A DNA stretch of 55,535 nucleotides from a virus, in the IMG/VR virus record IMGVR_UViG_3300048593_000098, positions 1-55,535 of that record. One strand, 5' to 3'. The notes beneath the pieces are model-generated. The model saw nothing but the letters and a program-made list of their open reading frames with translations. It was not told the DNA's origin and did no database searches. The translations under genes were made by a program, and so were the position numbers. How positions within the stretch are numbered: position 1 is the stretch's first letter; each line of letters starts with the position of its first letter. This document shows, piece after piece, positions 1-46,009 of this stretch.

Positions 1-229
1 TAAGACCCAAGGCGGAACTAACAACTGCATCAACGCGAATAATATCATGGTTCATTGTCTTGACTCGGTTGTCGAGTCCCATAATAATACCCTGCATTCC
101 CTTGAGTGCTTTAACAACGCTCTCGAGAATGTAGTTGATAACAAAATATACGAAGACACCCGCAAGTAAAGCACCTGCGATTGGGAATCCCACATCTCCG
201 ATCAATTTAAATATAGCATCGTATGTCAT
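1..229 (-). CDS. Small membrane protein, 3' end outside window (holin-like?)
   Basis: The first 76 codons are visible and the gene runs off the left edge. It starts at ATG 229-227. A hydrophobic segment at about residues 13-36 (GFPIAGALLAGVFVYFVINY) is followed by an amphipathic, heptad-like stretch (SVVKALKGMQGIIMGLDNRV). One N-terminal membrane helix followed by a coiled-coil-like tail resembles small phage holin-like or BhlA/UviB-type proteins, but that assignment is only a resemblance. It lies just downstream of the DNA-modification operon. Confidence 0.6.
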   Translation of the reverse strand, partial: MTYDAIFKLIGDVGFPIAGALLAGVFVYFVINYILESVVKALKGMQGIIMGLDNRVKTMNHDIIRVDAVVSSALGL

Positions 230-247
230 ACGATTATTTATAAGAAG

Positions 248-1363
248 TTATCTTATAATGTCAATTTTTCCAATTGAGTCAGCATTCCAAACCTCTAAGT
301 CGCGTCGTAAACGACCTTCTGCAACCAGATTATCATATCTAGACGTTGCCTTACGCTTCCACCACGAAATAATATTATCCATATAATGTTTATCAAAGTT
401 TTGTCCAGGAATTAACTTATCCTGCTTACCGAGAATAACTTCTTTGGAATTTTCATACCCGTATGTTGAAATATAGAAACGTTTCTTAGTAGTAATGTCT
501 TTATTTAGTTTGAGAGCATCGCAGAATACAGAATAGTATTCGGAGTCATGTTCTTTCAGGGATTTACTGATGATGCTATTCATCTTATTCTGCATCTTCA
601 TCTTATATGATGCTACACCGTCGCGACCAAACAATGGCGCTCCGCCGTTTTTCTCGTAGAACCATTCCATGGTCTCATCCCAGAAATCGTCTGAGAAAGA
701 GAGAACAAAATTACTAAGAGTGTCGCCTGTATAACGAATGAACGGTTTTAGTCCATCATACTGAGATGCTTGCTTGATGCTGCCATATAATGAAGTGGTT
801 TCAAATAGACAAGTGTCCATGTTATACTTCTTGTTAAACATCTCGCGAAACTCGTGCGAGGTGCAAAGAAGTGCAAGAAGTTTACCACCCAGATAATTAA
901 ATCCGAACGGTTGAGCAGGAACAATGATGAAACCCATCACCGCATGCTTGTTGAACGATTTTAGATCGGGAACTTGCCCGAACCATTCATTGCGTGGACG
1001 TGAATTGATAAAGGGACTGGCGACGCGACAGAATCCTACGTGCTTACCCGTATTCTTTTCTCTTACGATAAACTTGATTTCCTTCCCGAACGAATTTTCA
1101 TTACAAAAGGAAGAAGTGATTTCTACCATTGTCGAGAATTCGCTCGGGGAAGGTTCATAGATCTCAAGATCCATGTCTTCAGGGTGCATATTAAAGTCGG
1201 AGAACAAATTGTTCTCGGGTTCAAACCCTGGAAGAGAGTGTGGAAGGGTTTTTAACCGCTCCAGTTTTTTCATGCGCATGTGGTCGTCAATACGACCATA
1301 ATTTGACATGTAGTCAACGAATCGTTTTGCGATGTATTCTGCGTCGTGTTTTTCTAATATCAT
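248..1363 (-). CDS. DUF4338 (DruA-like) family protein
   Basis: A 371-aa protein. The centre carries the pattern I associate with phage DUF4338 proteins: a hydrophobic strand ending in VPAQPFGFNYLGGKLLALL, then CLFETTSLYG and a GLKPFIRYTGDT segment. DUF4338 includes DruA of the Druantia defence system; phage members are common and uncharacterised. Its ATG directly follows the TAA of the kinase gene, so it is the last of four tightly packed genes (GIY-YIG/ParB, pyrophosphorylase-like, kinase, DUF4338). The context suggests a part in DNA base modification, perhaps as a transferase acting on the modified base, but no catalytic residue could be assigned. Confidence 0.6.
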   Translation of the reverse strand: MILEKHDAEYIAKRFVDYMSNYGRIDDHMRMKKLERLKTLPHSLPGFEPENNLFSDFNMHPEDMDLEIYEPSPSEFSTMVEITSSFCNENSFGKEIKFIVREKNTGKHVGFCRVASPFINSRPRNEWFGQVPDLKSFNKHAVMGFIIVPAQPFGFNYLGGKLLALLCTSHEFREMFNKKYNMDTCLFETTSLYGSIKQASQYDGLKPFIRYTGDTLSNFVLSFSDDFWDETMEWFYEKNGGAPLFGRDGVASYKMKMQNKMNSIISKSLKEHDSEYYSVFCDALKLNKDITTKKRFYISTYGYENSKEVILGKQDKLIPGQNFDKHYMDNIISWWKRKATSRYDNLVAEGRLRRDLEVWNADSIGKIDIIR

Positions 1364-1906
1364 TTAACCAGTATAAAGCATTTTTTTGATAAAGTCAATG
1401 ATTTTTTGCTGATCATCAAAAGATTCATTAAGAAACTCGGTCATTTCCATCTGAAGAACGAAGTTGGAACGAATGTTATTGATTTTACTTTCGCGACCCT
1501 TCAACCAAGTCTCGTCTTGGTTACTACCACGTTCTGCGTAGCGAACATTTCGAGTTTCCTTCGTGGTTTGTAGATAAACGATACTGGTGTCATACTTATC
1601 GACACATTCCTCTAGGAATGAACCTGTGCAAAGACGATCGCCCTCGAAAAGAACAATATCTGTAGCAGCGCGAGATGCAAGAAACTTCACTGCCTCTGGT
1701 TGAACTGCCATCGACATCTTGTCAGTGCCACCGAAGACTTCACCTTCTTCATACTTACCCAGAACGTAAATGTTGTCCTTGTTATGATAGGGAACCAACT
1801 TTACATCAGTCTTCACTTCACGGGAAATGCCAACCTCGTCTAGCAAACGCTTCATAAGGGTAGACTTACCGCTTCCAGGTTCACCGAAAATTGCAATTAC
1901 TTTCAT
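1364..1906 (-). CDS. P-loop kinase, candidate 5-hydroxymethyl-dU DNA kinase
   Basis: A 180-aa P-loop NTPase with Walker A GEPGSGKST at residues 8-16 and an FEGD segment at 87-90 in the Walker B position. The family is that of small nucleoside- or polynucleotide-type kinases. It starts by a 4-bp ATGA overlap with the pyrophosphorylase-like gene. In phages with hypermodified thymine, a small P-loop kinase phosphorylates 5-hydroxymethyluracil in DNA before a pyrophosphorylase-type enzyme replaces the phosphate. Adjacency to such an enzyme is the main reason for the specific call; the kinase fold itself is clear. It could instead act on a nucleotide or small molecule. Confidence 0.65.
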   Translation of the reverse strand: MKVIAIFGEPGSGKSTLMKRLLDEVGISREVKTDVKLVPYHNKDNIYVLGKYEEGEVFGGTDKMSMAVQPEAVKFLASRAATDIVLFEGDRLCTGSFLEECVDKYDTSIVYLQTTKETRNVRYAERGSNQDETWLKGRESKINNIRSNFVLQMEMTEFLNESFDDQQKIIDFIKKMLYTG

Positions 1907-2904
1907 CCAAATAAATCCTCTAATCCAACTGATTTCTGTTCAACATCGAACATCCAATTCATTCTATCTAGTGTTCCAGATCGAACGTATTCACCACACT
2001 TGTCCTTATTAACACCATATCGCGAAAGCAGTCGAGAGTCAAGTGTTTCTTCGCGAGATTGCCATAAAACATTCCACTCAATACCATACCAACCGTCTGC
2101 TGCTACCTTATTGATCTCGTCTGCTTGACGATCTAGATAAAAACCTAGATATCGCGACGACCTTTCTCGGAAGATTTTCTTGAACGAGCAAAGACAGGTT
2201 TCCATAGTAAATGCGTCGAACTGTGGTGCAAGAGTTGGATACCGATGACGCAATTCATCCAGAATCGACTGAGACTCAGCTTCCAACCACTGGTATTCTT
2301 TCGGGGTGAGTTTACCATTAATCCATTCTTCCTTATTAAGAGCATAACAGAGACCATTGCGGTGCGACTTGCTACCTGAATAGTCATTCAGCATTAGACT
2401 GGTAGGTTCAATCTTAATTCCTGCAGTATGCTTTAGATGCTGCATATAGAACCAAGTCGTATAACGACCGAACTTGTGATAATTGGTATTGATAACCTTC
2501 CAAAGATTATCGAAGTTTTGCTGTTCATTATCGCCGTAGTGAGATTCTAGAACTTCACGCTGCGATTTCTTGCCCATAAACTTCTGATACGACTCGAACA
2601 TAGAAGGCAAATGCCCTTTATTGTATTTCGTATCTGTTTGATAACGAAGTCTTTTATAGTTTTCGTTATTCCACCATGTAATACGGTCTACAGTCGCAAG
2701 TTCGTAGTCTGGGAACTCATTCTTGAGCACCCAAGATGTTGGAAGGTAATAGGTGTTACCGTATAACCAGCACAACCAAATACGTTCTTCGTCATTGTGT
2801 TCATATCGCTTATTGAGGTAGTTGGTCTGCCAGACCGAAGGATCGCAATCCTTGTGACTAACAGACCAAGCATACCAGCGAATGAACAATTCGCGATTAT
2901 TCAT
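1903..2904 (-). CDS. Alpha-glutamyl/putrescinyl-thymine pyrophosphorylase-like protein
   Basis: A 333-aa protein rich in Trp and Tyr with the pattern I recognise from the predicted amino-acid/amine DNA transferases of hypermodifying phages: IWLCWLYGNTYYLPTSWVL in the N-terminal third, followed by an all-helical body. Family members are thought to displace pyrophosphate from activated 5-hydroxymethyl-dU in DNA and attach glutamate or putrescine. Genes on both sides overlap by 4 bp (ATGA), so it is translationally coupled to the GIY-YIG/ParB gene and the kinase. The protein ends VGLEDLFG, a tail resembling sliding-clamp-binding peptides. Family assignment is by pattern, not alignment; the substrate is unknown. 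Confidence 0.62.
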   Translation of the reverse strand: MNNRELFIRWYAWSVSHKDCDPSVWQTNYLNKRYEHNDEERIWLCWLYGNTYYLPTSWVLKNEFPDYELATVDRITWWNNENYKRLRYQTDTKYNKGHLPSMFESYQKFMGKKSQREVLESHYGDNEQQNFDNLWKVINTNYHKFGRYTTWFYMQHLKHTAGIKIEPTSLMLNDYSGSKSHRNGLCYALNKEEWINGKLTPKEYQWLEAESQSILDELRHRYPTLAPQFDAFTMETCLCSFKKIFRERSSRYLGFYLDRQADEINKVAADGWYGIEWNVLWQSREETLDSRLLSRYGVNKDKCGEYVRSGTLDRMNWMFDVEQKSVGLEDLFG

Positions 2905-4442
2905 TCAACATAATCTTCTGCAGCAATCCACTCACCAGTTTCCTCGTCATGATACGAGTCGGTTTTTTTATCGTAATAGTGCGTAATCTTACCATCATCA
3001 TATATTGGAGTAATGGTATTGCACTCGTCGTATGCTGGAATTTCCATATCAATTTCTGTCATCATGTTTTTGGTAAATGAATCTAAAAGAATAATTTTAA
3101 GATTACATCTAGGATTCATTCTTTTAACTGATGCAGTTAGTTTTTTAAAATATGTATCCCAATTCTCATAATCTGTTAATCCAGCGTGATGCGTAATGAT
3201 TACACCATCCCAGATATCCGCCTGTCCCATCTTATTTAGAACACCACCAACACCAGCATTATAAATCGCACCAGAGGTTACTGTAATACTGGCATGATTA
3301 GGATACTTCAAGTCAATTTCTTTTTGAATGTGAGTTAGATCAGTTTTAGAGTATATCTGGTAATTCATCTCAGCAATTGCCTGATCAGTTTTAATTCGCT
3401 CAATCGCCTTCTTCAAATTAGATGAAATGACTGCCCGTGTCCAAACAGGATCGAATTGATGCGTTACGCTTAACTTAAACTTATCGCTCTGCAGTAAAGT
3501 AAATTTATCGTCGTCAAGATCCTTGAGTTTCTTCGCATAACTCTGGATGATTGCACGCTGGCAGTCAGCAGGTGTATTCCCCTTCTTCTTAAATGGTTTA
3601 TGATTTGCTAGGTTTCCGTAATAATCGATTGTGCAATCATCGTCATCAAAATCACTGCTATTGATATAGATGACGGGTGCGCTAATCCAACCTGCATCAA
3701 GCGCCGCACGAGAAGTATGGTTCCCATCAATAATTAATTTTGTTCCGTCTGGATATACGACAACAACAATCGGTTGAACATGTTTTCTCGCCTCAGCAGG
3801 ATCAGACCGCATCTGGGTTGCAATTTCATCAACATGTGCAGGATCATACAATTCTGCACGAACCTGATTGTGTCCAAATTCTGCAATTACGGTAATGGGT
3901 TCTTCAATTGTCGTATAATAACCGTTCTTAACCAACTTGAGAATTTTCTTAGCAAGTTTTGTATTAGCAAGAGCAAAAACATCAACAGGTTTCGGTGCAG
4001 GTTCAATACCATTGATCCAATCGATACCAACCTTAGAATGTTCGACAGTAATTATGGACATATCTAAAATACCTCCATCACCACCACCACCATTACTGGA
4101 GTTATACCACATATCATTACGACGAGCATCAGCAGATTTTAGTAGATACCGCTCAAGGATAATAGCAATTCTGGCAGAACCAAAATAAAGAATTGTTCTA
4201 CGAAGATGACCTAATGACCATGCTCGTTGAAGTTCTGGATTTTTAGAAGAGAAAATATATCCATCATCAACATCTGCGCTCTTACGAAATCCGATATAAC
4301 GCTTGCCAGTTACAAAGTCATACCAACCATAAACATATCCTTTGGTCTTAGCAGAAATTGTAGATAATAGTTCTTCTATCTCATAATCACAATCGTCAAA
4401 ACTAGAAACTTCCTTGATTTGCGGGGTGCGTGTCATTGCCAT
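2901..4442 (-). CDS. GIY-YIG-like and ParB-like nuclease fusion protein
   Basis: A 513-aa protein. The N-terminal region (about residues 34-110) has a GIY-YIG-like core, GYVYGWYD...GKRYIGF. The middle (about 210-290) is ParB/Sulfiredoxin-like: an AELYDPAHVDEIATQM helix, a basic PIVVVVYPDG strand and the hallmark IIDGNHTSRAALDAGW. The C-terminal part is unassigned and ends acidic. ParB-like domains occur beside predicted DNA-modification enzymes in many phages. It is first in the operon; the ATG at 4442 is about 11 bases after AAGGA, with a promoter at 4475-4503. It may guide or license modification, or cut DNA lacking it; both roles are inference. Confidence 0.65.
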   Translation of the reverse strand: MAMTRTPQIKEVSSFDDCDYEIEELLSTISAKTKGYVYGWYDFVTGKRYIGFRKSADVDDGYIFSSKNPELQRAWSLGHLRRTILYFGSARIAIILERYLLKSADARRNDMWYNSSNGGGGDGGILDMSIITVEHSKVGIDWINGIEPAPKPVDVFALANTKLAKKILKLVKNGYYTTIEEPITVIAEFGHNQVRAELYDPAHVDEIATQMRSDPAEARKHVQPIVVVVYPDGTKLIIDGNHTSRAALDAGWISAPVIYINSSDFDDDDCTIDYYGNLANHKPFKKKGNTPADCQRAIIQSYAKKLKDLDDDKFTLLQSDKFKLSVTHQFDPVWTRAVISSNLKKAIERIKTDQAIAEMNYQIYSKTDLTHIQKEIDLKYPNHASITVTSGAIYNAGVGGVLNKMGQADIWDGVIITHHAGLTDYENWDTYFKKLTASVKRMNPRCNLKIILLDSFTKNMMTEIDMEIPAYDECNTITPIYDDGKITHYYDKKTDSYHDEETGEWIAAEDYVE

Positions 4443-4474
4443 AATATAAAAAATCCTTCATAATTTAGACAACC

Positions 4475-4503
4475 ATTATACTAAACTTTAGGGGAAAAGT
4501 AAA
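4475..4503 (-). promoter_or_regulatory. Sigma70-type promoter for the modification operon
   Basis: Minus strand reads TTTACT (4503-4498), exactly 17 bp, then TATAAT (4480-4475). It lies at the end of the upstream GNAT gene and immediately before the GIY-YIG/ParB gene. Confidence 0.8.
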
Positions 4504-5033
4504 GGGTTTTCTTCAAGTTTCGCAAATACTTTTACGCATCCGCCTTTACCCTTTCTAAACACTGCTTTGTTAATGACAGTATCGTTGATGTCATACAGAC
4601 CATCTTGGTAGGTTGGACCGTTGAGTTTGAACATGGACAGTTGACTGCCTGATTTCTGCTCACCGAGGAAAGTAAATCCACATTTCTCGTAGAATTGGAC
4701 TGCATCTGCTTCTGCAGAAACTCGGAAGTATGCAGCGTTGTATCGATGCGCCTCAGCAATAGCAAAGTCACACAACGTCCTGCCAACACCCTTACCACGC
4801 GAGGCATAGAATGTGTGAAGTAACTGCAGGTTGGCAATGATGGGAGTTCGCTTAGAGAATGATACGATGATAGCGCCGAGAAGATTATCATCTTCCCAGA
4901 CGCCCATACAGTTATCCCAGAGTTCTTGCATGTCTGCCTTTGCGACAAAAGTCTTTGCAAAGGAATCTTGCTTCTGAGTTGTAATGTGTTTACTAAATTC
5001 TTCGCGACTGGTTCGACGCAACCTAGACAACAT
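4488..5033 (-). CDS. GNAT family N-acetyltransferase
   Basis: A 181-aa protein with acyl-CoA-binding motif A (ASRGKGVGRTL, residues 78-87) and a motif B-like FYEKCGFTFLG at about 114-124, typical of GNAT enzymes. I place the start at ATG 5033, inside the end of the amidoligase gene with an 11-bp overlap, because it is the first ATG that keeps only the GNAT domain and it has GAGAA upstream. It is the last gene of the TET/GATase/amidoligase operon, so the substrate may be the amide product or an amino-modified base; this is inference. Confidence 0.82.
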   Translation of the reverse strand: MLSRLRRTSREEFSKHITTQKQDSFAKTFVAKADMQELWDNCMGVWEDDNLLGAIIVSFSKRTPIIANLQLLHTFYASRGKGVGRTLCDFAIAEAHRYNAAYFRVSAEADAVQFYEKCGFTFLGEQKSGSQLSMFKLNGPTYQDGLYDINDTVINKAVFRKGKGGCVKVFAKLEENPLLFP

Positions 5034-5910
5034 CGTGGAATTCTCGCTTCTTCTCACCGCGAGACTTGTCATACTTGGTATTAATCCAACCAGCGTATTC
5101 GTTAAGATCCCAGATGAATGGAGGGAAGTCAAAGTCGTAGTAATCTAGGATTTCCCTTACACTCGCCCAACTGCCATTCAATGCAGCATCAATAAACGCA
5201 GTCGCGAACTTGAACTGATCTTCAATCTGCTTACGATCGGTAGTTGAACGGAAGCAACGGAACTCAATCGTACCAGTATGCTTCATGCAATACATGTTGA
5301 TCGCATAACGGAAAGGACGACCCATGGAAACGCCATCTTTACCTGCTGCATGCATCTTAATAAACGAATCGAAGTCAGTTGCAAGGTTAGCAATGTTATC
5401 ACACATGTAATCAGGCATCTCACGACCACCGTCAAACTTGAGATATGTCGTAGCACCCTTTGCTGACTTCATACCACCACCATCGCGGAACTGATAACAC
5501 GCTTCAATAGTGTCTTTCTGGTTTGCCTTGATAAACGCAGTAAGACGCTTCAGTGCATCAATGTCATCTTTCAGACCTGGAACAAAAACGTGAAGGTGTC
5601 CATGGTTGACGCAGGATGCAGTTGGTTCGTTGCCGAAATCGACAAACAACTCATGAATTTGCATGATGCGATCAACCTGCTCCTCCCACGTGCGAGTTGG
5701 TTTGGTATTAATCTCGCCACCAAAAGGAGGTTCCACCCCCAATGGGTCACACGCGACAAAACGATACGGTTTGTGAATGTTTACAATGTCAGTTTCCGCA
5801 AACTCCCATGCACCAAGTTCTTCTGGAATCTCAACACGACGATCTATGTCCCCCCACTCAATTTCGTACCCATAAGTGAAGTCTTCAGTATCATATTTCA
5901 TATTTACCAT
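5023..5910 (-). CDS. COOH-NH2 amidoligase (putative amidoligase enzyme family)
   Basis: A 295-aa protein with hallmarks of the glutamine-synthetase-fold amidoligase family: GYEIEWGD at residues 14-21, GGEINTKPT at 64-72, NHGHLHVFVPGL at 102-113 and TGTIEFRCFRST at 212-223. Such enzymes use ATP to join a carboxylate to an amine or ammonia. It starts at ATG 5910 after AAGGA and overlaps the class II glutamine amidotransferase gene by 20 bp, which would supply ammonia. Published genomic surveys predicted amidoligase/GATase pairs in phages as peptide- or surface-tagging systems; here the pair is co-transcribed with a TET/JBP dioxygenase, which suggests a DNA or base substrate instead. Confidence 0.78.
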   Translation of the reverse strand: MVNMKYDTEDFTYGYEIEWGDIDRRVEIPEELGAWEFAETDIVNIHKPYRFVACDPLGVEPPFGGEINTKPTRTWEEQVDRIMQIHELFVDFGNEPTASCVNHGHLHVFVPGLKDDIDALKRLTAFIKANQKDTIEACYQFRDGGGMKSAKGATTYLKFDGGREMPDYMCDNIANLATDFDSFIKMHAAGKDGVSMGRPFRYAINMYCMKHTGTIEFRCFRSTTDRKQIEDQFKFATAFIDAALNGSWASVREILDYYDFDFPPFIWDLNEYAGWINTKYDKSRGEKKREFHDVV

Positions 5911-6586
5911 ATTGCAAGTCCTTATTATTAGTATTTACTGCTGTTTCAGTAATTTCACCATCAGAAACAGTATAAACTATATTCATGTCACAGTCAATAG
6001 TTTTTTCTACACCTGCACGATTAAAAATATCATGAGTAGAAGCAACAATTACGCCATTTTCAGTTCTATACTGTGTAAGTGGGCGTTTACCATTGCGGTA
6101 GAAGCGAAAAATCTTGTCAGAATGAACTTCACACGCTGAAATTGACGCATCAGGCCAACGTTCAAGTGGATTTTCACCATTTTCAACGGTTTTTAGCAAA
6201 AGTTCGCTGTCATTTCGGGTTTCAGTCGCGTAAGAACTAATTTTTGACCAATTTTCGGGTAATTCTTGTGTAATTACACCGTTATGCACGATTGCAACCT
6301 TGTCAGTGAACAATGGTTGGTTAAATTCTAGGTCTGAAGTGCTATAACGACAGTGTGCAACCATATAAAGGTTGCCATCTTCATTCAACATGCTATACAT
6401 GTCAATGCCAGCAAGGAATTCATCCGCTGGAAGTGGTGCTTTGATGGTAAAGATTGTGTTTTTGCGAACAAACGACACACCTGTTGCGTGTAACCCCCGA
6501 ATACGAGACTCGGAGATAACACGCTTCAGAAGCATCATGTCTTCAGCGTTGGGATTTTGAAGAAATGCGCCGACAACACCGCACAT
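5891..6586 (-). CDS. Class II glutamine amidotransferase (Ntn hydrolase)
   Basis: A 231-aa protein beginning MCGVVGAF, so Cys2 becomes the N-terminal nucleophile once Met is removed. Further GATase II features are a ...GLHATGVSF segment, AHCRYST and VHNGVI, which bind glutamine. It is a stand-alone domain of normal size. Its start overlaps the stop of the TET/JBP gene (TAATG). It should release ammonia from glutamine for the adjacent amidoligase. Confidence 0.88.
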   Translation of the reverse strand: MCGVVGAFLQNPNAEDMMLLKRVISESRIRGLHATGVSFVRKNTIFTIKAPLPADEFLAGIDMYSMLNEDGNLYMVAHCRYSTSDLEFNQPLFTDKVAIVHNGVITQELPENWSKISSYATETRNDSELLLKTVENGENPLERWPDASISACEVHSDKIFRFYRNGKRPLTQYRTENGVIVASTHDIFNRAGVEKTIDCDMNIVYTVSDGEITETAVNTNNKDLQYGKYEI

Positions 6587-7923
6587 TAGAACAAATCCTC
6601 TAGTGAAGACTCCACCTTGAACGCTGCAGGGTGGAACTTTTCTACAATTTCACGACCCATCTTACCTTCGAGGTATTCATACCACTCAGGTTCGTCCCAC
6701 ATTCCAGGCGAAACGCCATTCCAGAGTGGGCGATAGAACTTGTGGTTGCGATCCATTCGACGATCGGTTACAAACTGTTCGCGAGTCTGCTCATATTCCC
6801 ATGGTCCAAGATCTAGCATTGCTTCGCGGAAATAGCAAACCAACGAAATGCGTTCAGCATCTGGAGTATCTAGAACAATCTCAGTATTAGCATGCATAAT
6901 CTCGTGATTGTTAACAAGCAAAAGATCTCCTGGACGAACGTTCACTGCCATACGATATTCTGGGAATACCAGATAACCACCAGTATAGTTACCCTTACCA
7001 ACTACCAGAAGATTCGACAATCCGCTATCTAGATCGCCAGCATCTCGGTGACACGCAGTGCGGAAAGTCTTGTTGACAGTAATGGTGGTAAACACTGTCT
7101 CGGGAACGAGGAAGCGAGGGTCCAACTTGTCTGCCGCTGCTCGTTGATTACCCCAACGCCACGGTAGGAGTTCCTTAAAACCTCTGTCTAGAGACTGGAG
7201 GAACGGGAACGAAAGAGCAAACTTCTCTGGTTCGTCACGAGTATACGAAGTAGCACGACCGAAGGGAATACGAGGATAACGGTCGAACCAACCAGCAACG
7301 CCAGAGAATACTGACTTCGCATAGTTAGTCTGCGAAACCCACTTAGTGGCAATCATCTTCGCTTCTTCTGCGCACTGCTCCTTGGTCTTATTATGAAGAC
7401 CGTCGACCCACTTATCGAACCAACCGAAGTATTCGGGATATGTCTTACAGACCTGACTGCGCAACCAGACCTGTCCTCGAGTCTCGTCCTCGGTAGAACG
7501 ACCTGCGCCTTCATACTTCTTACGGATAGACTCAATGGAAAGGTCGTCAATCAAACGTCCATCGGTATTCATCAGGAAGTCTAGAACCTCGAGTTCGTAA
7601 CTGGTAACCCAATCACGCCCACCACGACCCTCTACGCCAAGAAGTTCTCCGCGAGGTCCAGCAGCGAGTCCACGATTCTGGGATTCTTTTGCTGCCTCGC
7701 GGAGACCGATGTATGCGGAATCTCGTTCTTCCTGCGTAAACCAGTTCTTACGAAACTTGAACGCAATACGCTGTTCGTCGCCAAGACTTGGAGAACCGAA
7801 TACCGATTCCATGTAGCAGTCTGTGTCTTCATTAATAACAATGTCATAATGACTGTCATCAACATATTGACCGAGCAAATGCTCACAGTCAAGTTTAGAC
7901 TCAGCAACAATAATTTTTACCAT
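6586..7923 (-). CDS. TET/JBP-family 2-oxoglutarate/Fe(II) dioxygenase
   Basis: A 445-aa protein. Its C-terminal half has the TET/JBP core: TITVNKTFRTACHRDAGD with HxD at H292/D294, GNYTGGYLVFPEYRMAV, PGDLLLVNNHEIMHANTE with the distal His at H344, and ERISLVCYFR with R358 for 2OG. The family oxidises the 5-methyl of thymine or 5-methylcytosine in DNA. The N-terminal half (about 1-270) is a non-catalytic region I do not recognise. It is the first gene after the promoter at 7973-8001, starting at ATG 7923 with GGAGAT upstream. The protein ends SSLEDLF, matching the tail of the pyrophosphorylase-like protein. The nearby kinase favours thymine as substrate; this is inference. Confidence 0.88.
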   Translation of the reverse strand: MVKIIVAESKLDCEHLLGQYVDDSHYDIVINEDTDCYMESVFGSPSLGDEQRIAFKFRKNWFTQEERDSAYIGLREAAKESQNRGLAAGPRGELLGVEGRGGRDWVTSYELEVLDFLMNTDGRLIDDLSIESIRKKYEGAGRSTEDETRGQVWLRSQVCKTYPEYFGWFDKWVDGLHNKTKEQCAEEAKMIATKWVSQTNYAKSVFSGVAGWFDRYPRIPFGRATSYTRDEPEKFALSFPFLQSLDRGFKELLPWRWGNQRAAADKLDPRFLVPETVFTTITVNKTFRTACHRDAGDLDSGLSNLLVVGKGNYTGGYLVFPEYRMAVNVRPGDLLLVNNHEIMHANTEIVLDTPDAERISLVCYFREAMLDLGPWEYEQTREQFVTDRRMDRNHKFYRPLWNGVSPGMWDEPEWYEYLEGKMGREIVEKFHPAAFKVESSLEDLF

Positions 7924-7972
7924 AATATCTCCAAAACTTTTCTTACATTATATGTAGGCAACTTTAAATACT

Positions 7973-8001
7973 ACTATACTAGATTTCTCGACAAATGTCA
8001 A
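7973..8001 (-). promoter_or_regulatory. Sigma70-type promoter for the TET/JBP operon
   Basis: TTGACA (8001-7996), 17 bp, TATAGT (7978-7973) on the minus strand. The -35 lies in the last codons of the phosphoesterase gene. Confidence 0.82.
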
Positions 8002-8558
8002 GTCTTTTTCAGCACATCGTCAAAAGAAATCGGCGTGTAGTTAATCTGCTCCACGCATACACACAGGTAGCGAGGGTCTGGTTCGGTAACAAGTCCAGTC
8101 ATGTAACCATGAACCATGTTGGTTCTTGTATGCATGATCCGATTACCATGCAGGTGACCGTGGACGTTGCGCTTGAACCGCTCACCTACACAGTCTGGGT
8201 GAAGAGGAATATGAGACAGGATGAACTGATCCACAAACACGCGAACGCCATGAATCTGCTCGAACCCTGCCCCATAATAATCCTTATCCTTGTAAATGTC
8301 ATGATTTCCACGGATAAGGATTTTCCGCCCATTCAGACGCTTCACTGTTTCCAGATGGCGTCGGGCGATTACTACATCCCCAAGATGATACACTGTATCT
8401 TGCGGACGAACTGTCTTGTTCCAGTTGTCTACCATTGCCTCGTCCATCTCCTCGGTGGAGGTGAAAGGACGGAGAGGACTACCATCCTCTAGGGTAAACT
8501 TTTCCCATGTGCTGGTATGTCCAAAATGGGTATCACTGATTAGAAATCTAGCTGGCAT
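7998..8558 (-). CDS. Calcineurin-like metallophosphoesterase
   Basis: A 186-aa protein with the full set of metal-binding motifs: ISDTHFGH (residues 7-14), YHLGDVV, IRGNHDIY, LSHIPLHP and VHGHLHG. Single-domain phage phosphoesterases of this size are usually phosphodiesterases or nucleic-acid phosphatases; the substrate is unknown. It starts at ATG 8558, overlapping the end of the small gene upstream. Confidence 0.88.
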   Translation of the reverse strand: MPARFLISDTHFGHTSTWEKFTLEDGSPLRPFTSTEEMDEAMVDNWNKTVRPQDTVYHLGDVVIARRHLETVKRLNGRKILIRGNHDIYKDKDYYGAGFEQIHGVRVFVDQFILSHIPLHPDCVGERFKRNVHGHLHGNRIMHTRTNMVHGYMTGLVTEPDPRYLCVCVEQINYTPISFDDVLKKT

Positions 8559-8697
8559 TTTGCTTTCCGTTGTATATTCGTGTTGCTTCTACACTGAGCG
8601 ACAATACGGCAGTTGCATTGATACGACAAGCGATGTTCAAAACAATCCACTTAGCGATGTATGCAGTGATACGTTCTTTGCGACTTAAATTCATCAT
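8548..8697 (-). CDS. Small hypothetical protein
   Basis: A 49-aa ORF starting at 8697 through a 4-bp ATGA overlap with the metalloprotease gene; it ends inside the phosphoesterase start. The N terminus is basic (NLSRKER), followed by a mildly hydrophobic helix (AYIAKWIVLNIA). Not recognised. Confidence 0.6.
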   Translation of the reverse strand: MMNLSRKERITAYIAKWIVLNIACRINATAVLSLSVEATRIYNGKQNAS

Positions 8698-9164
8698 GCT
8701 GCCTCCTGTGCTGCACACCACTTGTGATAAAGACCGACTTCGCGACCATATGCCTCGATCTCCCAAGGAGAATCGAAATAGGCATCTTCCTTGCCCTTTG
8801 GTTTCCAGATTTGACCCATCCACTTGCTGTAGATTTTGAGACCACCACGAGCAGCGACCGCATGACCAGTCGCGAGTTCGTTCTTCGCGTGTTGCTTGAC
8901 GTGAACCATCTCGTGACCAAGAACCTTGATCATTTCATTCACGTCTTGGTTCTTGAGACCGATCGTGAACCAGCGAGGGTTCTTCGTGCCGTCCTCATCG
9001 ACGCACTCACCTTCGAGGTCAAAGTTTTTCCAAACTTCGATATCTAGTGTCAGATTTTGAACCATACGAGGGTCCATCAGTTGCGCTGCAAAAAACTCTG
9101 CTGCTTTAATCAACTTCGCTTTCTCGGCGCGACGACCAATCATTCCCGTTACTGTGATATTCAT
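8694..9164 (-). CDS. Zincin-like metalloprotease
   Basis: A 156-aa protein with an HExxH zinc motif (GHEMVH, residues 83-88) in a helix, then SPWEIEAYGREVGLY near the C terminus, whose Glu could be the third ligand. I chose ATG 9164 because AAGGA lies 8 bases upstream; the longer reading frame would run back into the promoter. Phage members of this type are uncharacterised. The promoter at 9193-9221 serves it. Confidence 0.68.
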   Translation of the reverse strand: MNITVTGMIGRRAEKAKLIKAAEFFAAQLMDPRMVQNLTLDIEVWKNFDLEGECVDEDGTKNPRWFTIGLKNQDVNEMIKVLGHEMVHVKQHAKNELATGHAVAARGGLKIYSKWMGQIWKPKGKEDAYFDSPWEIEAYGREVGLYHKWCAAQEAA

Positions 9165-9192
9165 ATTCAATTCCTTCATAACCAATACAGAC

Positions 9193-9221
9193 AGTATACC
9201 CCAAAACGCAACAGAAGTCAA
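9193..9221 (-). promoter_or_regulatory. Sigma70-type promoter
   Basis: TTGACT (9221-9216), 17 bp ending GGGG, TATACT (9198-9193). The -35 overlaps the stop region of the next gene upstream. Confidence 0.85.
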
Positions 9222-9427
9222 GCCCCTATTAGGTCGTCGAGCACAATATTAATTATTTCTTCGAAGTCATCATCAGGGTGAAGGCGAGTTCCTGCCCAGA
9301 CATTCATCATAAGTCCATCAACATATTCACGGAGTTCTTCACCATGAGTACCAGAGACGCATTCATAGATGTAGTCAAAGGCATCAGGTGCAATGGCGAG
9401 AGCATCAAGTATTTTTTGTTCAGTCAT
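9218..9427 (-). CDS. Small acidic hypothetical protein
   Basis: A 69-aa acidic protein starting at ATG 9427 behind AAGGAA. It has a helical N terminus (MTEQKILDALAIA) and an acidic C terminus (DDDFEEIINIVLDDLIGA). No family recognised. It has its own promoter at 9457-9485. Confidence 0.65.
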   Translation of the reverse strand: MTEQKILDALAIAPDAFDYIYECVSGTHGEELREYVDGLMMNVWAGTRLHPDDDFEEIINIVLDDLIGA

Positions 9428-9456
9428 AATTAAGTTCCTTTTCATATTATATACAC

Positions 9457-9485
9457 AGTATACCCTAAAACGGAACAAAAGTCAA
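9457..9485 (-). promoter_or_regulatory. Sigma70-type promoter
   Basis: TTGACT (9485-9480), 17 bp, TATACT (9462-9457). Confidence 0.85.
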
Positions 9486-9507
9486 GCCCTCATTTGTCTT
9501 TTTTCAA

Positions 9508-10260
9508 TTATATTTTGTCCAAAAAACGAGAAGCAACCACTTCGTTCCACTCTCTCCCTGGATGCATCAGGTCTCGACCCTCAATGCGATTGATCGTTAA
9601 ATCACCACTAACATTCTCCATTGGCATCTCTATTAGCGGAACGCCAATGCTATTACAGATGGTCTGAACCCCCATCACGTTCTTCAACTGATTCATCTCT
9701 GCGTTAGCAGGGTGCGACAACCAACCATGGTAAAATTCGTTAATCTTGGCAGTAACAGAATCTGGTAGATACGATGCATTCGGCATAATATTCAGAATAT
9801 GGTTATCCAACACGATTTCCATCCTCCCTACTTTGGGTGTTAGCATCATAACATACTTCGGACGCAATAGTGGAATCCAGTGGTGTGCCAAACGAAAACA
9901 CGTATCCGACGACCCCGCTCCTATACCAAGGTTATAATGACGAAGTCCAAGGCTACTCGCTACTTTATACGTCCAACTACTTTCTAGATCTACACCTATC
10001 CCTGCAGTAAGGGAACACCCAAGGAAAAGCACAGAGTCGTTCGGTTCGTAAGTAAACTCCTCAGACCGAAACCCATCTTTATTGAATGTGTAAGAAATAC
10101 TGTCTCGCGTCCATCCATACTCCTCTAGCAATGCTCGTTTTGCTGGGTCTGCCATGTTGGCATCAAAACGGTCTTCAGAGTCAGACTGACTCCACTTTAC
10201 CGTCTTGCCTGTATGTCCGAGGTTTATACTATACCAACTTTGTCCGTAACTCTTACTCAT
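9508..10260 (-). CDS. SGNH/GDSL-like hydrolase
   Basis: A 250-aa protein with a block I motif FLGCSLTAGIG (candidate nucleophile Ser83; Cys replaces the usual Asp before it), a Gly-rich block (YNLGIGAGSSD) and a terminal DLMHPG block V that supplies the Asp-x-x-His pair. SGNH enzymes are esterases or acetylhydrolases on lipids, glycans or peptidoglycan. The next gene upstream is a sulfotransferase-like gene whose stop abuts it, so a cell-surface or glycan role is plausible. Confidence 0.72.
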   Translation of the reverse strand: MSKSYGQSWYSINLGHTGKTVKWSQSDSEDRFDANMADPAKRALLEEYGWTRDSISYTFNKDGFRSEEFTYEPNDSVLFLGCSLTAGIGVDLESSWTYKVASSLGLRHYNLGIGAGSSDTCFRLAHHWIPLLRPKYVMMLTPKVGRMEIVLDNHILNIMPNASYLPDSVTAKINEFYHGWLSHPANAEMNQLKNVMGVQTICNSIGVPLIEMPMENVSGDLTINRIEGRDLMHPGREWNEVVASRFLDKI

Positions 10261-10794
10261 TTAATTCCTCCATTGTTTCCACTCCTCTACTGGAACCCTC
10301 TCCCGAGTTGCCATCAATTGGTTATAAACCTCAACGCATCGTTCCAAGTCCTGTAGAGTGTATACCGAATTCTCCACATAAATCTCCGCTGCAGTTGTAG
10401 GATAGTGTCGCGTATCTGTTCGAACAGACTGCACCTGCATAGTATCTATCCTAGGAATATACTGCTCTAGGTCGTAGAAATCTATGATACGAAAGTTAGC
10501 ATCAATAAAGTCAATGGTGCGAAACCTATTTACTTCTAGATTGTGTAGATACGGTGCGGAATGTCGAGCAAACTCCTCGAGTCGTAACTTTGGTGGTCCA
10601 TTGCATAAGAATGGCATAGAGGAAACAACACGGTCTATGGGGTTACGAAGAACCAATATGGGATTGTGGTGCATCATCCAATCCCGCATTCCAAACCCGT
10701 GTGGTGTTTCCTTTTTAAAGTAGTTAAACATGTTGGTAGACCCACAGCGAAGGTTTGCCATGACAGCACAATTACGATTGCAATGGATAAACAT
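10261..10794 (-). CDS. Sulfotransferase-like protein 1
   Basis: A 177-aa protein resembling sulfotransferases: the N-terminal phosphosulfate-loop region is RCGSTNMFNYF and the 3'-phosphate-binding segment is ILVLRNPIDRVVSS. It is shorter than typical sulfotransferases (about 250-300 aa) but has a paralog in this window at 12755-13249 that shares VVLRNPLDRVKSS and FRIIDFYDLEQYIPR. PAPS-dependent sulfation of a glycan or small molecule is the family function; activity is not shown. Confidence 0.65.
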   Translation of the reverse strand: MFIHCNRNCAVMANLRCGSTNMFNYFKKETPHGFGMRDWMMHHNPILVLRNPIDRVVSSMPFLCNGPPKLRLEEFARHSAPYLHNLEVNRFRTIDFIDANFRIIDFYDLEQYIPRIDTMQVQSVRTDTRHYPTTAAEIYVENSVYTLQDLERCVEVYNQLMATRERVPVEEWKQWRN

Positions 10795-10988
10795 GTTGAA
10801 CCTTTTAGAGTCCTAATCTGGCCGCAAAAAAATTAATTCGGCATTATATAGGAAAGTGTGTAGCGGGAGAGCGATTGCGTTTTTGAGACGATGTTAAAGC
10901 AAGTCGGCGCTTAACCCCTCGTGCGGCTCGGGTACCTTGTCCAACTTTCCATAGCTCACTTTCTCTGGAGAGAGTACTGCTACCTCAC
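10795..10988 (-). other. Non-coding gap of about 190 bp
   Basis: No ORF above about 20 codons fits. The minus strand has a TATAAT (10848-10843) but no convincing -35, and a weak GCCG/CGGC stem around 10820-10842. It may be the leader of the sulfotransferase/SGNH pair. Confidence 0.35.
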
Positions 10989-11231
10989 TTACACGCCACG
11001 TGGGACGCGAAGGAGGCGCATGACGTCTTTGTCAAGATAGTCACCCAAGGCAGTCCACTGACGGAAAGCGACACACTCGGTCATTCGAGCAGCGCAACGG
11101 TCGATGTTAGCACAACCTTCACAGGGAACATCGCGGACGTTCTCTGGGGTGTTCAGGGGAAGGAGGGCATTCGCCGACCGACCCTTGAGGTAATCTTGTT
11201 CACAACCAACGGAGAAATATTCGGTATTCAT
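10989..11231 (-). CDS. Small cysteine-cluster protein
   Basis: An 80-aa protein starting at ATG 11231 after GGAAAAAG. A Cys cluster at about residues 37-54 (CEGCANIDRCAARMTEC) suggests a small metal-binding site. Related small Cys proteins are common in T4-type phages, with no known function. It is driven by the promoter at 11263-11291. Confidence 0.65.
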   Translation of the reverse strand: MNTEYFSVGCEQDYLKGRSANALLPLNTPENVRDVPCEGCANIDRCAARMTECVAFRQWTALGDYLDKDVMRLLRVPRGV

Positions 11232-11262
11232 AATAACTTTTTCCTTTTCATATTATATACCC

Positions 11263-11291
11263 AGTATACCCTATTTTTGGGATAAAGTCAA
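11263..11291 (-). promoter_or_regulatory. Sigma70-type promoter
   Basis: TTGACT (11291-11286), 17 bp, TATACT (11268-11263). Confidence 0.85.
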
Positions 11292-11295
11292 CAGC

Positions 11296-11448
11296 TCATT
11301 TGCTCTTTCCTGAATTAATTTCAATTATCCTGTCCCAATTGATATTGTACGGTAATTTTAGGTCTCTAAACTCTATGAGTTGTGCTACCTTGTCTTCCGC
11401 TTGTTGATATATCTTGTAAACGTCTGCTAGTGTGTATTCGTAAGCCAT
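11296..11448 (-). CDS. Small hypothetical protein (50 aa)
   Basis: A 50-codon ORF from ATG 11448 (AAAGG upstream) to TGA 11296. It fits exactly between two promoters and is preceded by the promoter at 11482-11510. The N terminus is MAYEYTLADVYKIYQQAEDK, an amphipathic helix; the C terminus is basic. No family recognised. Confidence 0.6.
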   Translation of the reverse strand: MAYEYTLADVYKIYQQAEDKVAQLIEFRDLKLPYNINWDRIIEINSGKSK

Positions 11449-11481
11449 AATTTAAACCTTTCTTTCAAAGACGACATAGTC

Positions 11482-11510
11482 AGTATACCTCGATTTGCTG
11501 TGGAAGTCAA
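11482..11510 (-). promoter_or_regulatory. Sigma70-type promoter
   Basis: TTGACT (11510-11505), 17 bp, TATACT (11487-11482). Confidence 0.85.
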
Positions 11511-11524
11511 CACTTTTCTTCATC

Positions 11525-11570
11525 TTATTACAAATAAAATGATCCCCCTGCCATTGCTGACAGAGGGACC
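11525..11570 (-). terminator. Rho-independent terminator with GNRA loop
   Basis: The minus strand folds into a 13-bp stem with G-U pairs (11570-11558 with 11553-11541), a GCAA tetraloop and a following T-rich ATTTTATTTG. It lies about 35 bp after the stop of the gene at 11607-11888 and closes that unit. Confidence 0.8.
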
Positions 11571-11606
11571 ATGGGGTGCACAGAGAGGAAAAGGAAAGGA
11601 AACTCC

Positions 11607-11888: not shown

Positions 11889-11890
11889 AA

Positions 11891-22295: not shown

Positions 22296-22560
22296 AATTA
22301 ATCACATTCACGAAATCAAGTTTCTGGTCTTCATCCCAGTCTTTAAGATAGACATTATCCTCGTCAAACATACGAAGATATTCTGCGCTAGTAATCTCAC
22401 GAGTGGATGAAATCATCTCGTCGAGATGGAGTTGTGAGAACTCTTTGAAGTCATCGCCTACGCACATCGTTACCTCATCCTTAGCATCGGATGCACTGTT
22501 TGCCTCAACGACATATCGCATACGGAATACGCTAACTGTTTCTACAAGATATTTTGGCAT
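22285..22560 (-). CDS. Small hypothetical protein
   Basis: A 91-aa protein (VETVSVFRMRYVVEANSASD at the start, then acidic helix) like many conserved small phage proteins. Starts at the stop of the dCMP deaminase gene. Not assigned. Confidence 0.6.
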   Translation of the reverse strand: MPKYLVETVSVFRMRYVVEANSASDAKDEVTMCVGDDFKEFSQLHLDEMISSTREITSAEYLRMFDEDNVYLKDWDEDQKLDFVNVINYGQ

Positions 22561-23048
22561 TAGTCCAACTTTCCATCATATGTGCGCAACCATGGTTGCC
22601 CAGCGTTTACATTAATCTCTCGTTCTGTCTCGAAAAGCATCACACCTGCCTCTTGGAACATCTCACGAGTGACATCCCAATTGAATCCTTCGCCTTCGCG
22701 ATTTGGTTTGTAACTGACTACCTTCGAAATACCATTTTGGATAATCGACTTAGCACACTCGTTACAAGGAAGGAGAGGCACATACATCGTGCAACCTTCT
22801 ACGCTATGTGGTGCATTGTCAAGAGCATTGCGTTCAGCGTGACAAACAAACAGATGTTTAGTTGGGCGATCTTCATAACGCTTGACATCATCTTTAACTC
22901 CTCGAGGGAAACCATTGTATCCCATAGAGACGACACGCTTCTTATCATCTACGATGACTGCGCCTACTTTCGTGCGAGGGTCGTGTGACCACTCAGCGAC
23001 GTGCTCGGCGAGGTCAAGAAATCGTTGTGACCATTTACTCACTATCAT
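22560..23048 (-). CDS. dCMP/cytidine deaminase
   Basis: A 162-aa zinc deaminase: HAERNAL (zinc ligand His and catalytic Glu) and PCNECAKSII (the two Cys ligands), with a DPRTKVGAVIV substrate-pocket strand. It makes dUMP from dCMP, feeding ThyX in this same window. ATG 23048 is chosen; a GTG at 23042 with GAAG upstream is an alternative. Confidence 0.85.
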   Translation of the reverse strand: MIVSKWSQRFLDLAEHVAEWSHDPRTKVGAVIVDDKKRVVSMGYNGFPRGVKDDVKRYEDRPTKHLFVCHAERNALDNAPHSVEGCTMYVPLLPCNECAKSIIQNGISKVVSYKPNREGEGFNWDVTREMFQEAGVMLFETEREINVNAGQPWLRTYDGKLD

Positions 23049-23271
23049 CTTCCCCGACGAAATCGTAGGGAACATCTTCGTCCTGCTTACGACCCATATA
23101 GTGGTCATCGCTTACGCAATAGAACTGTGCCTGTAGTTGACTATTGATAATGGTGCGAGTGACATCACCAGCAAAAGCAACGCATTGCTCTTTGTTTGCA
23201 GACTCGTAGACATCCTTTGCTACGAACTCACCCTCAGTGGTAAAAAGGAATACAATCAACCAATAACTCAT
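23035..23271 (-). CDS. Small hypothetical protein
   Basis: A 78-aa protein beginning with a hydrophobic stretch (MSYWLIVFLFTTEGEF) and with an acidic tail. Common-looking small phage protein. Overlaps both neighbours. Confidence 0.58.
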   Translation of the reverse strand: MSYWLIVFLFTTEGEFVAKDVYESANKEQCVAFAGDVTRTIINSQLQAQFYCVSDDHYMGRKQDEDVPYDFVGEDDSE

Positions 23272-26011: not shown

Positions 26012-26066
26012 GCGGTTTCTCCCCGCAATTGCTGGAATTTGTCAACTTTAGCATTACATTTTTTCC

Positions 26067-31535: not shown

Positions 31536-31553
31536 AGGTCACCTATTGAAAAT

Positions 31554-31629: not shown

Positions 31630-31644
31630 GTAATACTTATAAAA

Positions 31645-44601: not shown

Positions 44602-45314
44602 TTGCGCACCTCTTCAAGAATGTGATATTTAGGTTCCCATCCGAGTCTGCGCATTTCATCGATATTGGCATGAGTGACTTCTCTCTCACCAACAACATCT
44701 TTGAAAGGAACATCTCGGTATCCATAGGTATCCAAAACTTCACTGACAGAGATCGGTTCATCCGACCCAATATCTACTATACCCGAATAATTCGGATTAG
44801 TCAATAGAATTTCAATCGCAGAGCAAATATCTTCAACATGCGTCCAGTCTCGAAGATGTTCTGTTTTATATTCGATTTTATTATTAAGCATCATATCATA
44901 GAACATATCAGGGCGACTGTCTGGACCATAAACTGTATGGAATCTCATACCAATTGAGGTATATGGCGCAAGTTCTTCCATCGCCTTTTTGCTGGTAGCA
45001 TATGGATTTTTCCACCACTCATAAATTGAGGAGGAAGATGCATAGATTACCTTTACCCGATTAATCTCTGCCCATCTAAAGATGCGATTCGATGCAGTCA
45101 CATTAGTTTCCCAATAACCTTCTGGATCGTCCCAACTTTTGCGAACACCAGCGAGTGCTGCTAGGTGTAGAACAACATCTGGGTTCCCGTAAGACTCTGT
45201 CATCTTCCATTCACGAATATCTCCCTCGTATGGAATTACAGTGTGATTCTTAGAAAGAATACGAAGCGCATTCCTACCGATAAACCCTTCATGTCCAGTT
45301 AGTAGAATTCTCAC
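44598..45314 (-). CDS. NAD-dependent epimerase/dehydratase (extended SDR)
   Basis: A 238-aa Rossmann protein: GHEGFIG nucleotide loop at residues 7-13, VVLHLAALAGV, SSSSIYE and YATSKKA with the YxxxK catalytic pair. Likely acts on a nucleotide sugar for surface or base glycan. It starts at GTG 45314, in GTGA overlap with thyX. Confidence 0.83.
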   Translation of the reverse strand: MRILLTGHEGFIGRNALRILSKNHTVIPYEGDIREWKMTESYGNPDVVLHLAALAGVRKSWDDPEGYWETNVTASNRIFRWAEINRVKVIYASSSSIYEWWKNPYATSKKAMEELAPYTSIGMRFHTVYGPDSRPDMFYDMMLNNKIEYKTEHLRDWTHVEDICSAIEILLTNPNYSGIVDIGSDEPISVSEVLDTYGYRDVPFKDVVGEREVTHANIDEMRRLGWEPKYHILEEVRK

Positions 45315-46009
45315 GGGAGTTTTCTTTCAAACTCTGCTTGTGCTGCCATGCTATCTAGAGCTGCCTTGACATCAGGGAAGTGATGGGCAATTATATCCCA
45401 GCACTGCACTGCAACGATACGGTGTTCCTTTTGAGTCGCCTTATCCATGCGCAACTGACAGTAGTGAACCCATGACCGAAGCGAACCTGCCATGATGATA
45501 GTTGATTCTGTTAGACCTTCAGGGAGAACAGCACGTGCCTGTTCCTTGGCGATACCATTTTCAATTGCCCACTCATAAGCATCTACCGCAGCATGAGTTA
45601 AGGTTCGTTGTTTCAAATCCCACTCTCCAGCAAGTTCGCTATCTTCAACTTCTACTGAGTTCTGTCTGTTCTTGGCATCCTGCAGACGTGCTTCCCGTAC
45701 AACAAATCCCAGATCCTTGGTTGGATCGGCGTAACGCTGACTGTACTCTTGGAATCTGAAAGAACTATGCCGCAAAATCTGGCGGGCAATATCTCGTGTT
45801 GTTTTAATTTCCATTGCGACATGGACCATCTCCAGTGGTGACCAGTGTTGGTTCTTAATAAGATACTGAACCAGTTTAGGTGCTGTTGCGGTGTTGTTTT
45901 GGTTTGACGGATTAGATACTCTTGCTGCCCATGCAACAAGTTCATTAGCAGTATTACATTCTGTGTAGGCAGAAGGTTTCGACAGACTTACTAGGTTTAC
46001 TTCACTCAT
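45311..46009 (-). CDS. thyX: Flavin-dependent thymidylate synthase (ThyX family)
   Basis: A 232-aa ThyX. The signature RHRx7S appears as RHSSFRFQEYSQRY (residues 80-93): R80-H81 and S90 are conserved, but the third Arg is Ser82. Family function is dUMP to dTMP with FAD and methylene-tetrahydrofolate. With a dCMP deaminase and RNR nearby it would supply thymidine. The altered motif and the hypermodification genes make other products possible. Confidence 0.85.
   Translation of the reverse strand: MSEVNLVSLSKPSAYTECNTANELVAWAARVSNPSNQNNTATAPKLVQYLIKNQHWSPLEMVHVAMEIKTTRDIARQILRHSSFRFQEYSQRYADPTKDLGFVVREARLQDAKNRQNSVEVEDSELAGEWDLKQRTLTHAAVDAYEWAIENGIAKEQARAVLPEGLTESTIIMAGSLRSWVHYCQLRMDKATQKEHRIVAVQCWDIIAHHFPDVKAALDSMAAQAEFERKLP

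Follow-up and report, generated by a model that had tools for sequence, protein, structure and literature searches.

A candidate TET-fed thymine hypermodification operon with amidotransferase, putative amidoligase and acetyltransferase genes in an IMG/VR viral record

In phages M6 (Pseudomonas), ViI (Salmonella) and phiW-14 (Delftia), a 5-hydroxymethyl-deoxyuridine (5-hmdU) DNA kinase and a transferase act on 5-hmdU in DNA (PMC6449724, available text), and a five-gene set of the Rhodococcus phage Tonitrus has been published as a predicted thymidine hypermodification system (PMC11955845, available text). Here we describe a related operon at positions 248-7923 of the 55,535-nucleotide IMG/VR record IMGVR_UViG_3300048593_000098, the whole of which is called the window. 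Its genes, all on the minus strand, encode in order a TET/JBP dioxygenase, a class II glutamine amidotransferase (GAT), a putative amidoligase (AL), a GNAT acetyltransferase, a ParB-type protein, an ADDT-family transferase, a P-loop kinase and a DruA-like protein (Table 1). Thymine hypermodification fed by TET/JBP enzymes was reportedly predicted in the comparative genomics of Iyer in 2013; the idea is already published as a prediction, and the operon of the window is a variant of it with added genes. What is new is the link between GAT and ADDT, the tailoring genes, and a minimal module that sits under wrong gene names in the cultured Mycobacterium phage BrownCNA. We think it quite probable that the operon carries out post-replicative thymine hypermodification, fed by TET, with GAT tied to the transferase step and with AL and GNAT in tailoring roles. 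No description of a TET-GAT-AL-GNAT-ADDT-kinase operon was found in the literature searched by title and start of abstract, a scope that lay outside the full texts of Iyer 2009/2013, Lee 2018/2022 and Burke 2021.

The core enzymes are assigned by family profiles. The protein of 445 amino acids (aa) belongs to Tet_JBP (PF12851, E 5.6e-23, 81.4 bits against a gathering score of 34.9), and its HxD motif, distal His and Arg are kept in 67 of 67 aligned groups and in Cr30 (a Caulobacter phage), DLP6 and BrownCNA; the match to CcTet structures is weak (E 0.0037). The 333-aa protein falls in ADDT (PF18724, E 1.1e-20, 74.9 bits against 26.2) and also matches phrog_3271 (E 6.3e-54). Adjoining it, the 180-aa protein is a Ploopntkinase3 member (PF18751, E 1.8e-14, 54.2 bits against 27), with the Walker A residues G8, P10, G13 and K14 and the stretch E88-G89-D90-R91 conserved across 48 groups. 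A first-pass annotation, made from the letters of this DNA, had named five proteins here, and all five are in place on the minus strand. Its TET/JBP call is borne out by the profile and the conserved residues, and its transferase and P-loop kinase resolve to ADDT and Ploopntkinase3 and not to unrelated families. The gene set that it gave was incomplete, since GAT, AL and GNAT (4488-6586), inside its interval, were left out.

Where would the hydroxymethyl group come from? Among 35 whole records searched, 26 carry ADDT and enter the count: 18 that also have TET (16 from IMG/VR, the window included, with Cr30 and BrownCNA) and eight TET-less controls (Simon, Menlow, 3M, D504, phiA8-29, K452, Guerrero and LIMEstone1). 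PF00303 is matched in all eight controls (E 8e-8 to 3e-24) and in 1/18 of the TET-bearing records (Cr30), while ThyX shows 0/8 and 12/18, respectively. Fisher's test on the PF00303 pattern gives p = 5.8e-6 by record and 2.8e-5 with the TET-positive records grouped, relatedness being ignored in both. The controls come from two or three lineages: five Ackermannviridae, two Vibrio phages that group with one of them in the ADDT tree, and Simon. A classical PF00303 dUMP hydroxymethylase of the M6/ViI type occurs in none of the 16 IMG/VR records with TET and ADDT, many of which are fragments, nor in BrownCNA, and the PF00303 protein of Cr30 is a canonical thymidylate synthase (PDB ThyA, E 1.9e-88). 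Nine further records with TET and no ADDT match were left out of the count (G013, G017-G020, DLP6, C48C1, S-CBWM1 and HTVC112P); they show PF00303 in 0/9, the C5-cytosine methyltransferase family PF00145 in 0/9 and ThyX in 4/9. The pattern suggests that TET phages make ordinary thymidylate, or take that of the host, without a hydroxymethylase, and the window agrees, with genes for ThyX (PF02511, E 1.9e-41) and a dCMP deaminase (phrog_174, E 8e-53). It also has the composition predicted for a TET-fed system, TET with ADDT and kinase and no match to PF00303 or PF00145 in this fragment. We give hardly any credence to the alternative that an unseen hydroxymethylase, or one of the host, makes the 5-hmdU while TET does something else, such as further oxidation: most records are fragments, which leaves room for it, but PF00303 is unmatched in the records G001-G006 (146-235 kb) and in complete BrownCNA.

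BrownCNA (71,214 bp, host M. smegmatis mc2 155) is complete and cultured. Its genes 2-4 are TET, ADDT and kinase (L183, 785-3465) and follow gene 1, which is annotated ParB-like and has no Pfam match. The third gene, annotated hypothetical, matches ADDT at E 1.4e-8, and the fourth matches Ploopntkinase3 at E 7.2e-73. The whole genome gave no match to PF00303, ThyX or PF00145. In the public annotation the TET is called a queuine tRNA-ribosyltransferase and the kinase a terminase small subunit; PHROGs 6059 and 800, which bear the same wrong labels, match the TET and kinase of the window. Altogether 27 Mycobacterium records match the ADDT of the window, BrownCNA being the one analysed.

The protein encoded directly after TET is a GAT (PF13522, E 2.4e-9, 37.7 bits against a gathering score of 27). 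It begins MCGVVGAF, the Cys2 is present in 42/43 sequences, R30-G31, R80, HNG 101-103 and ND 125-126 are conserved, and the RYST, NQP, HNG and ND motifs are kept. How closely does this gene follow the pathway? IMG/VR scans with ADDT (80 of 124 loci kept), TET (80 of 82) and AL (18), together with the earlier loci L001-L007, gave a set of 174 loci that collapse into 85 near-identical groups. TET and ADDT are both seen in 47 of the 85, and in 38 of these 47 the ADDT is short (325-364 aa, and one row ended by the contig). GAT is found in 37 of the 38 short-ADDT groups, the exception (L087) being a contig that starts inside AL; GNAT is found in 35, AL in 28 and a ParB gene in about 17, where the ParB label of L020 is a distant minus-strand match and not an operon gene. 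TET leads the operon in 36 of these groups and lies after the kinase in the remaining two, L085 and L087, and GAT lies immediately upstream of AL in most AL-bearing operons. In the other nine groups the ADDT is long (380-422 aa), and GAT, AL and GNAT are all absent. In the ADDT tree the short form requires two changes, owing to the very long branch of Simon, and a single origin is possible; the rows of the long ADDTs, BrownCNA and Simon are uncertainly placed. A short ADDT was considered as a sign of a simpler nucleophile and then dropped, as the BrownCNA ADDT is likewise short and that phage has no GAT match.

Locus sets fetched by ADDT, TET or AL favour those genes, and a GAT-based fetch was therefore run as a check on bias. 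It covers the 80 closest of at least 588 relatives, with duplicates kept and with search patterns drawn from the GATs of these same operons. In these best 80, ADDT was seen downstream, no more than 4.5 kb away, in 70 and was found missing from none, the remaining 10 not being assessable; TET was seen upstream in 75 and found missing from 2, and 3 were not assessable. AL is present in 50, absent from 27 and unclear in 3; the corresponding figures for GNAT are 69, 6 and 5.

For AL, the fold is read from a predicted structure. PDB sequence searches with AL, ADDT and GAT yielded nothing usable. The AlphaFold model of AL (mean predicted local distance difference test score, pLDDT, 90.8) aligns in VIA-align with 1tt4 (Z 11.2), YbdK (10.7), plant glutamate-cysteine ligase (10.5) and glutamine synthetases (about 10), with Z 9.4-11.2 over 173-236 residues among the 50 matches listed; Foldseek alone gives E 5e-3 at best. 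The ExE, HxH and TxEFR positions, which we take to be functional, are invariant or nearly so in 30 sequences. On this model AL belongs to the glutamine synthetase/GCS fold superfamily, whose members join carboxylates to ammonia or amines. A relative of AL is found in phage Simon (27% identity, profile E 8.4e-39). The GNAT matches PF13673 (E 1.8e-12, scored on a 214-aa open reading frame), and its start is most likely the ATG at 5033, preferred to the TTG at 5132; this ATG is in frame and overlaps the AL stop by 11 bases.

The segment between GAT and ADDT varies from operon to operon. In L020 it holds a match to the TET-associated glycosyltransferase family (TAGT, PF20691, above cut-off), AL and a low-molecular-weight phosphatase-like protein, and in L069 a weak glycosyltransferase match, AL and a member of the same phosphatase-like family. 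This variation, with the AL-phosphatase pair also present in Simon, supports a tailoring role for these genes. The phosphatase-like gene follows AL at 8618-10005 of L020, at 2677-4091 of L069 and at 10001-11381 of L175, that is, in two IMG/VR operons and in Simon. One AL-less operon has two extra 2OG-Fe(II) (2-oxoglutarate-dependent) oxygenases (PF13759) inserted (L048, 7504-9990). A homologue of myo-inositol-1-phosphate synthase, sought within 1.5 kb of the operon and tested with Pfam in Cr30 only, lies near 4 of the 9 long-ADDT clusters (Cr30, L002 5855-12325; L118; L153; L154), so these clusters possibly make an inositol-linked base.

A number of points weigh against this interpretation. 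All 174 loci were found by homology to genes of the window, and several TET-positive records are near-identical (G000/G001/G014, G005/G006 and G008/G009). Absences are soft because many records are fragments, and among the eight controls the comparison with known hydroxymethylases covers only the PF00303 protein of Simon, which comes nearest to CMP 5-hydroxymethylase (E 4.2e-21); the other seven are presumed hydroxymethylases. The BrownCNA TET (E 5.5e-6, 26.1 bits) falls below the Pfam cut-off of 34.9, with HxD, His and Arg aligned. AL reaches E 0.005 and 17.2 bits with Amidoligase_2 (PF12224), under the gathering score of 22, and is absent from 10/38 short-ADDT groups. Whole-record searches found no GAT match in Simon, Cr30 or BrownCNA. 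Among cultured phages, 106 records hold more remote GAT relatives, at about 30% identity. Pseudomonas phages account for 100 of these, and none of the 13 phage records that match TET is from a Pseudomonas phage; GAT-family genes therefore have other uses. Finally, TET proteins can act on 5-methylcytosine (5mC), and one record (G005) carries a C5-methyltransferase.

The last two points lead to a different substrate, in which TET would oxidise 5mC and the kinase and transferase would act on cytosine. Other phage TETs, according to Burke and colleagues in 2021, are said to oxidise 5mC, and besides the methyltransferase of G005, TAGT is matched in L020 (above cut-off) and in Cr30 (below). This alternative is nevertheless very unlikely, because 17/18 records with TET and ADDT, complete BrownCNA included, have no PF00145 match, because ADDT and the kinase come from families tied to 5-hmdU, and because TET is complementary to the PF00303 proteins of the ADDT phages. 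The proposal of the first-pass annotation that TET replaces a dUMP hydroxymethylase is thus supported by the complementarity in ADDT records, the rarity of PF00145 and the ThyX of the window. A methyltransferase at 13251-13781 of the window was considered as a source of 5mC for TET and set aside: it belongs to Pfam Methyltransf_24, and the window has no PF00145 match. The same protein matches phrog_2675, labelled DNA methyltransferase (E 2.5e-8), and a DNA target is possible.

A second alternative makes GAT, AL and GNAT a separate metabolic or host-surface module that sits in the operon by chance. AL and a GATase occur in OM43 phages, where cell-wall or metabolite roles have been suggested (PMC10580990, available text), the distant GAT relatives are mostly in Pseudomonas phages, and an AL relative in Vibrio phage 2.275.O (L176, 9890-15098) adjoins annotated queuosine/7-deazaguanine synthesis genes and a nucleophile aminohydrolase. 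However, ADDT follows GAT in 70/70 assessable loci of the best 80 of at least 588 relatives, AL is also part of the Simon cluster with ADDT and PF00303, and the setting in 2.275.O is itself probably one of base modification. Chance association therefore seems improbable.

From gene content we infer all catalytic steps, their order, thymine and not 5mC as the substrate, and the structure of the final base. Replication would proceed with ordinary dTTP, supplied through ThyX and dCMP deaminase. TET would then hydroxylate the methyl group of thymine already in DNA to give 5-hmdU, the P-loop kinase would phosphorylate the new hydroxyl, and the ADDT-family transferase would swap the phosphate for a nitrogen nucleophile; these last two steps are modelled on the known pathway (PMC6449724, available text). 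Ammonia that GAT draws from glutamine would be coupled to the transferase step, and the product would be acylated or ligated by GNAT and/or AL.

Which nitrogen is used? GAT is constant with short ADDT, while AL and GNAT vary: two whole records, G002 of 171 kb and G004 of 147 kb, match GAT but not AL, and L156 is a TET-GAT-ADDT contig that ends 225 bases past ADDT. This favours ammonia at the transferase. We tentatively suggest, as a possible but still doubtful outcome, that the transferase uses ammonia supplied by GAT instead of an amino acid, giving 5-aminomethyl-dU that is acylated by GNAT and/or joined by AL to a carboxylic acid. About as likely, and itself uncertain, is the same pathway with other tailoring, in which ADDT adds an amino acid, GAT and AL amidate its carboxylate with glutamine ammonia, and GNAT acylates the amine. 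The predicted fold of AL, the position of GAT directly upstream of AL in most AL-bearing operons and the Pfam name of ADDT, amino acid:DNA transferase, all fit that arrangement. On the other hand, GAT is kept without AL in 10/38 groups and in 27 of the best 80 GAT-fetched loci, G002 and G004 lack an AL match (other ligases were not searched for), and Simon has AL and no GAT match. Ammonia at the transferase is therefore the arrangement we favour. The nitrogen-handling enzymes point to an undescribed DNA base. The glutamyl- or putrescinyl-thymine proposed at first pass were guesses, and the gene set does not single them out.

Table 1. Features of the operon and associated supply genes in the window
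Feature	Coordinates	Strand	Remarks
TET/JBP 2OG-Fe(II) dioxygenase, 445 aa	6586..7923	-	PF12851; proposed methyl hydroxylase for thymine in DNA
Class II glutamine amidotransferase (GAT), 231 aa	5891..6586	-	PF13522, Cys2 nucleophile; proposed ammonia donor
Putative amidoligase (AL), 295 aa	5023..5910	-	Glutamine-synthetase/GCS fold (model); Pfam match sub-threshold
GNAT acetyltransferase, ~181 aa	4488..5033	-	PF13673; ATG at 5033 chosen as start
ParB-fold protein, GIY-YIG-like N-terminus, 513 aa	2901..4442	-	Foldseek to Noc/ParB; accessory in operon
ADDT (amino acid:DNA transferase, aGPT-Pplase family), short form, 333 aa	1903..2904	-	PF18724
P-loop 5-hydroxymethyl-dU DNA kinase candidate, 180 aa	1364..1906	-	PF18751
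DruA-like protein, 371 aa	248..1363	-	PF14236; clade-specific neighbour, probably not core
Promoter-like site upstream of TET	8001-7973	-	11/12 consensus positions; consensus match only
Promoter-like site upstream of ParB-type gene	4503-4475	-	10/12 consensus positions; consensus match only
ThyX (Thy1), dTMP maker, unlinked supply gene	45311..46009	-	PF02511
dCMP deaminase, unlinked dUMP/dTMP supply gene	22560..23108	-	phrog_174

The first-pass annotation had drawn two promoter-led operons with 4-bp overlaps. The overlaps are there (ParB-type/ADDT at 2901-2904, ADDT/kinase at 1903-1906), while the promoters are consensus matches only; positions 1-10000 of the window hold 36 such sites on both strands against 21.8 +/- 4.7 in shuffles. 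The ParB/GIY-YIG fusion of that annotation also stands in part. By sequence the 513-aa protein is only weakly ParB-like (Pfam E 0.01-0.03, below cut-offs; phrog_1033, E 6.9e-6), and its AlphaFold model (mean pLDDT 83.9) matches Noc/ParB (Foldseek E 6.6e-6), which upholds the ParB fold as a predicted structure. Its N-terminus reads VYGW...RYIGF with conserved Glu97 and Asn114, which fits the GIY-YIG motif, and has a weak PADLOC homing-endonuclease match (E 5e-4). No match to this protein was found by tblastn in phage records.

The 371-aa protein, listed at first pass as a DUF4338 member of the locus, is real: it matches DruA (PF14236, which we take to be the former DUF4338; E 1.2e-11, 44.8 bits against 27) over residues 85-193 only, as well as phrog_19197 (E 1.2e-138) and PADLOC DruA1 (E 3.8e-8). 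Its gene is found in just 2/85 locus groups, that of the window and a cyanophage locus without the operon, where it stands by a clamp loader, and it is thus probably not core to the operon. Of 31 phage records with this family, 25 are from Synechococcus phages, and the gene lies beside a clamp loader gene in the region viewed (L007, 4001-5122); one phage record labels the protein methylcarbamoylase mom.

Elsewhere in the window, a second cluster of unusual enzymes at 24689-30689 comprises an Asp/Arg-hydroxylase-like protein (below cut-off), a QueC-like protein, a B12-binding radical SAM protein, a SPASM radical SAM protein and a family 2 glycosyltransferase, and an array of 22 tRNA genes lies at 31032-34913 on the minus strand. 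Megablast of positions 1-12000 against phage records gave no match. G005 and G006, the records of L164 and L159, have two TET genes and two ADDT-like matches each. G005 is of jumbo-phage size (234,735 bases), in contrast to a survey whose available text reports no TET/JBP among the jumbo phages covered (PMC7824862).

Taken together, these data support at the genome level what was predicted earlier, namely that TET can stand in for hydroxymethylation of the nucleotide when hypermodified thymine is made. With TET in the place of a hydroxymethylase, the TETs of bacterial viruses become candidate thymine oxidases, possibly useful for DNA labelling, and the tailoring branch pointed to comprises an amidotransferase, an amidoligase and an acetyltransferase. 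In tRNA, the nm5U/cmnm5U modifications embody a choice between ammonium and glycine. If the transferase does use ammonia, the operon would be a DNA counterpart of that choice, with the whole chain run on ordinary thymine after replication. The first steps of the pathway would be directly measurable in BrownCNA.

How does the operon compare with described systems? BrownCNA and the window have TET, ADDT and kinase in common, and BrownCNA has no GAT or AL match. Cr30 likewise has TET, ADDT and a P-loop kinase within about 9 kb, but differs in its long ADDT, canonical ThyA, TAGT-like gene (below cut-off) and myo-inositol-1-phosphate synthase, and has no GAT or AL match. Simon shares an AL relative, set among genes for PF00303, HMUDK_hel, ADDT and FAD oxidoreductase proteins that form a thymidine hypermodification cluster; its PF00303 protein is nearest to CMP 5-hydroxymethylase, and neither TET nor a GAT match was found. 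M6, ViI and phiW-14, whose transferases we take to belong to the ADDT family, are thought to draw on a 5-hmdUTP pool, whereas the window has TET, no PF00303 match and, in addition, GAT, AL and GNAT. Tonitrus, compared by description only, is alike in its ParB-like protein, tet-like J-binding protein, aGPT-Pplase2 and 5-hmU DNA kinase, and differs in that the available text of its description names no GAT, amidoligase or GNAT (PMC11955845).

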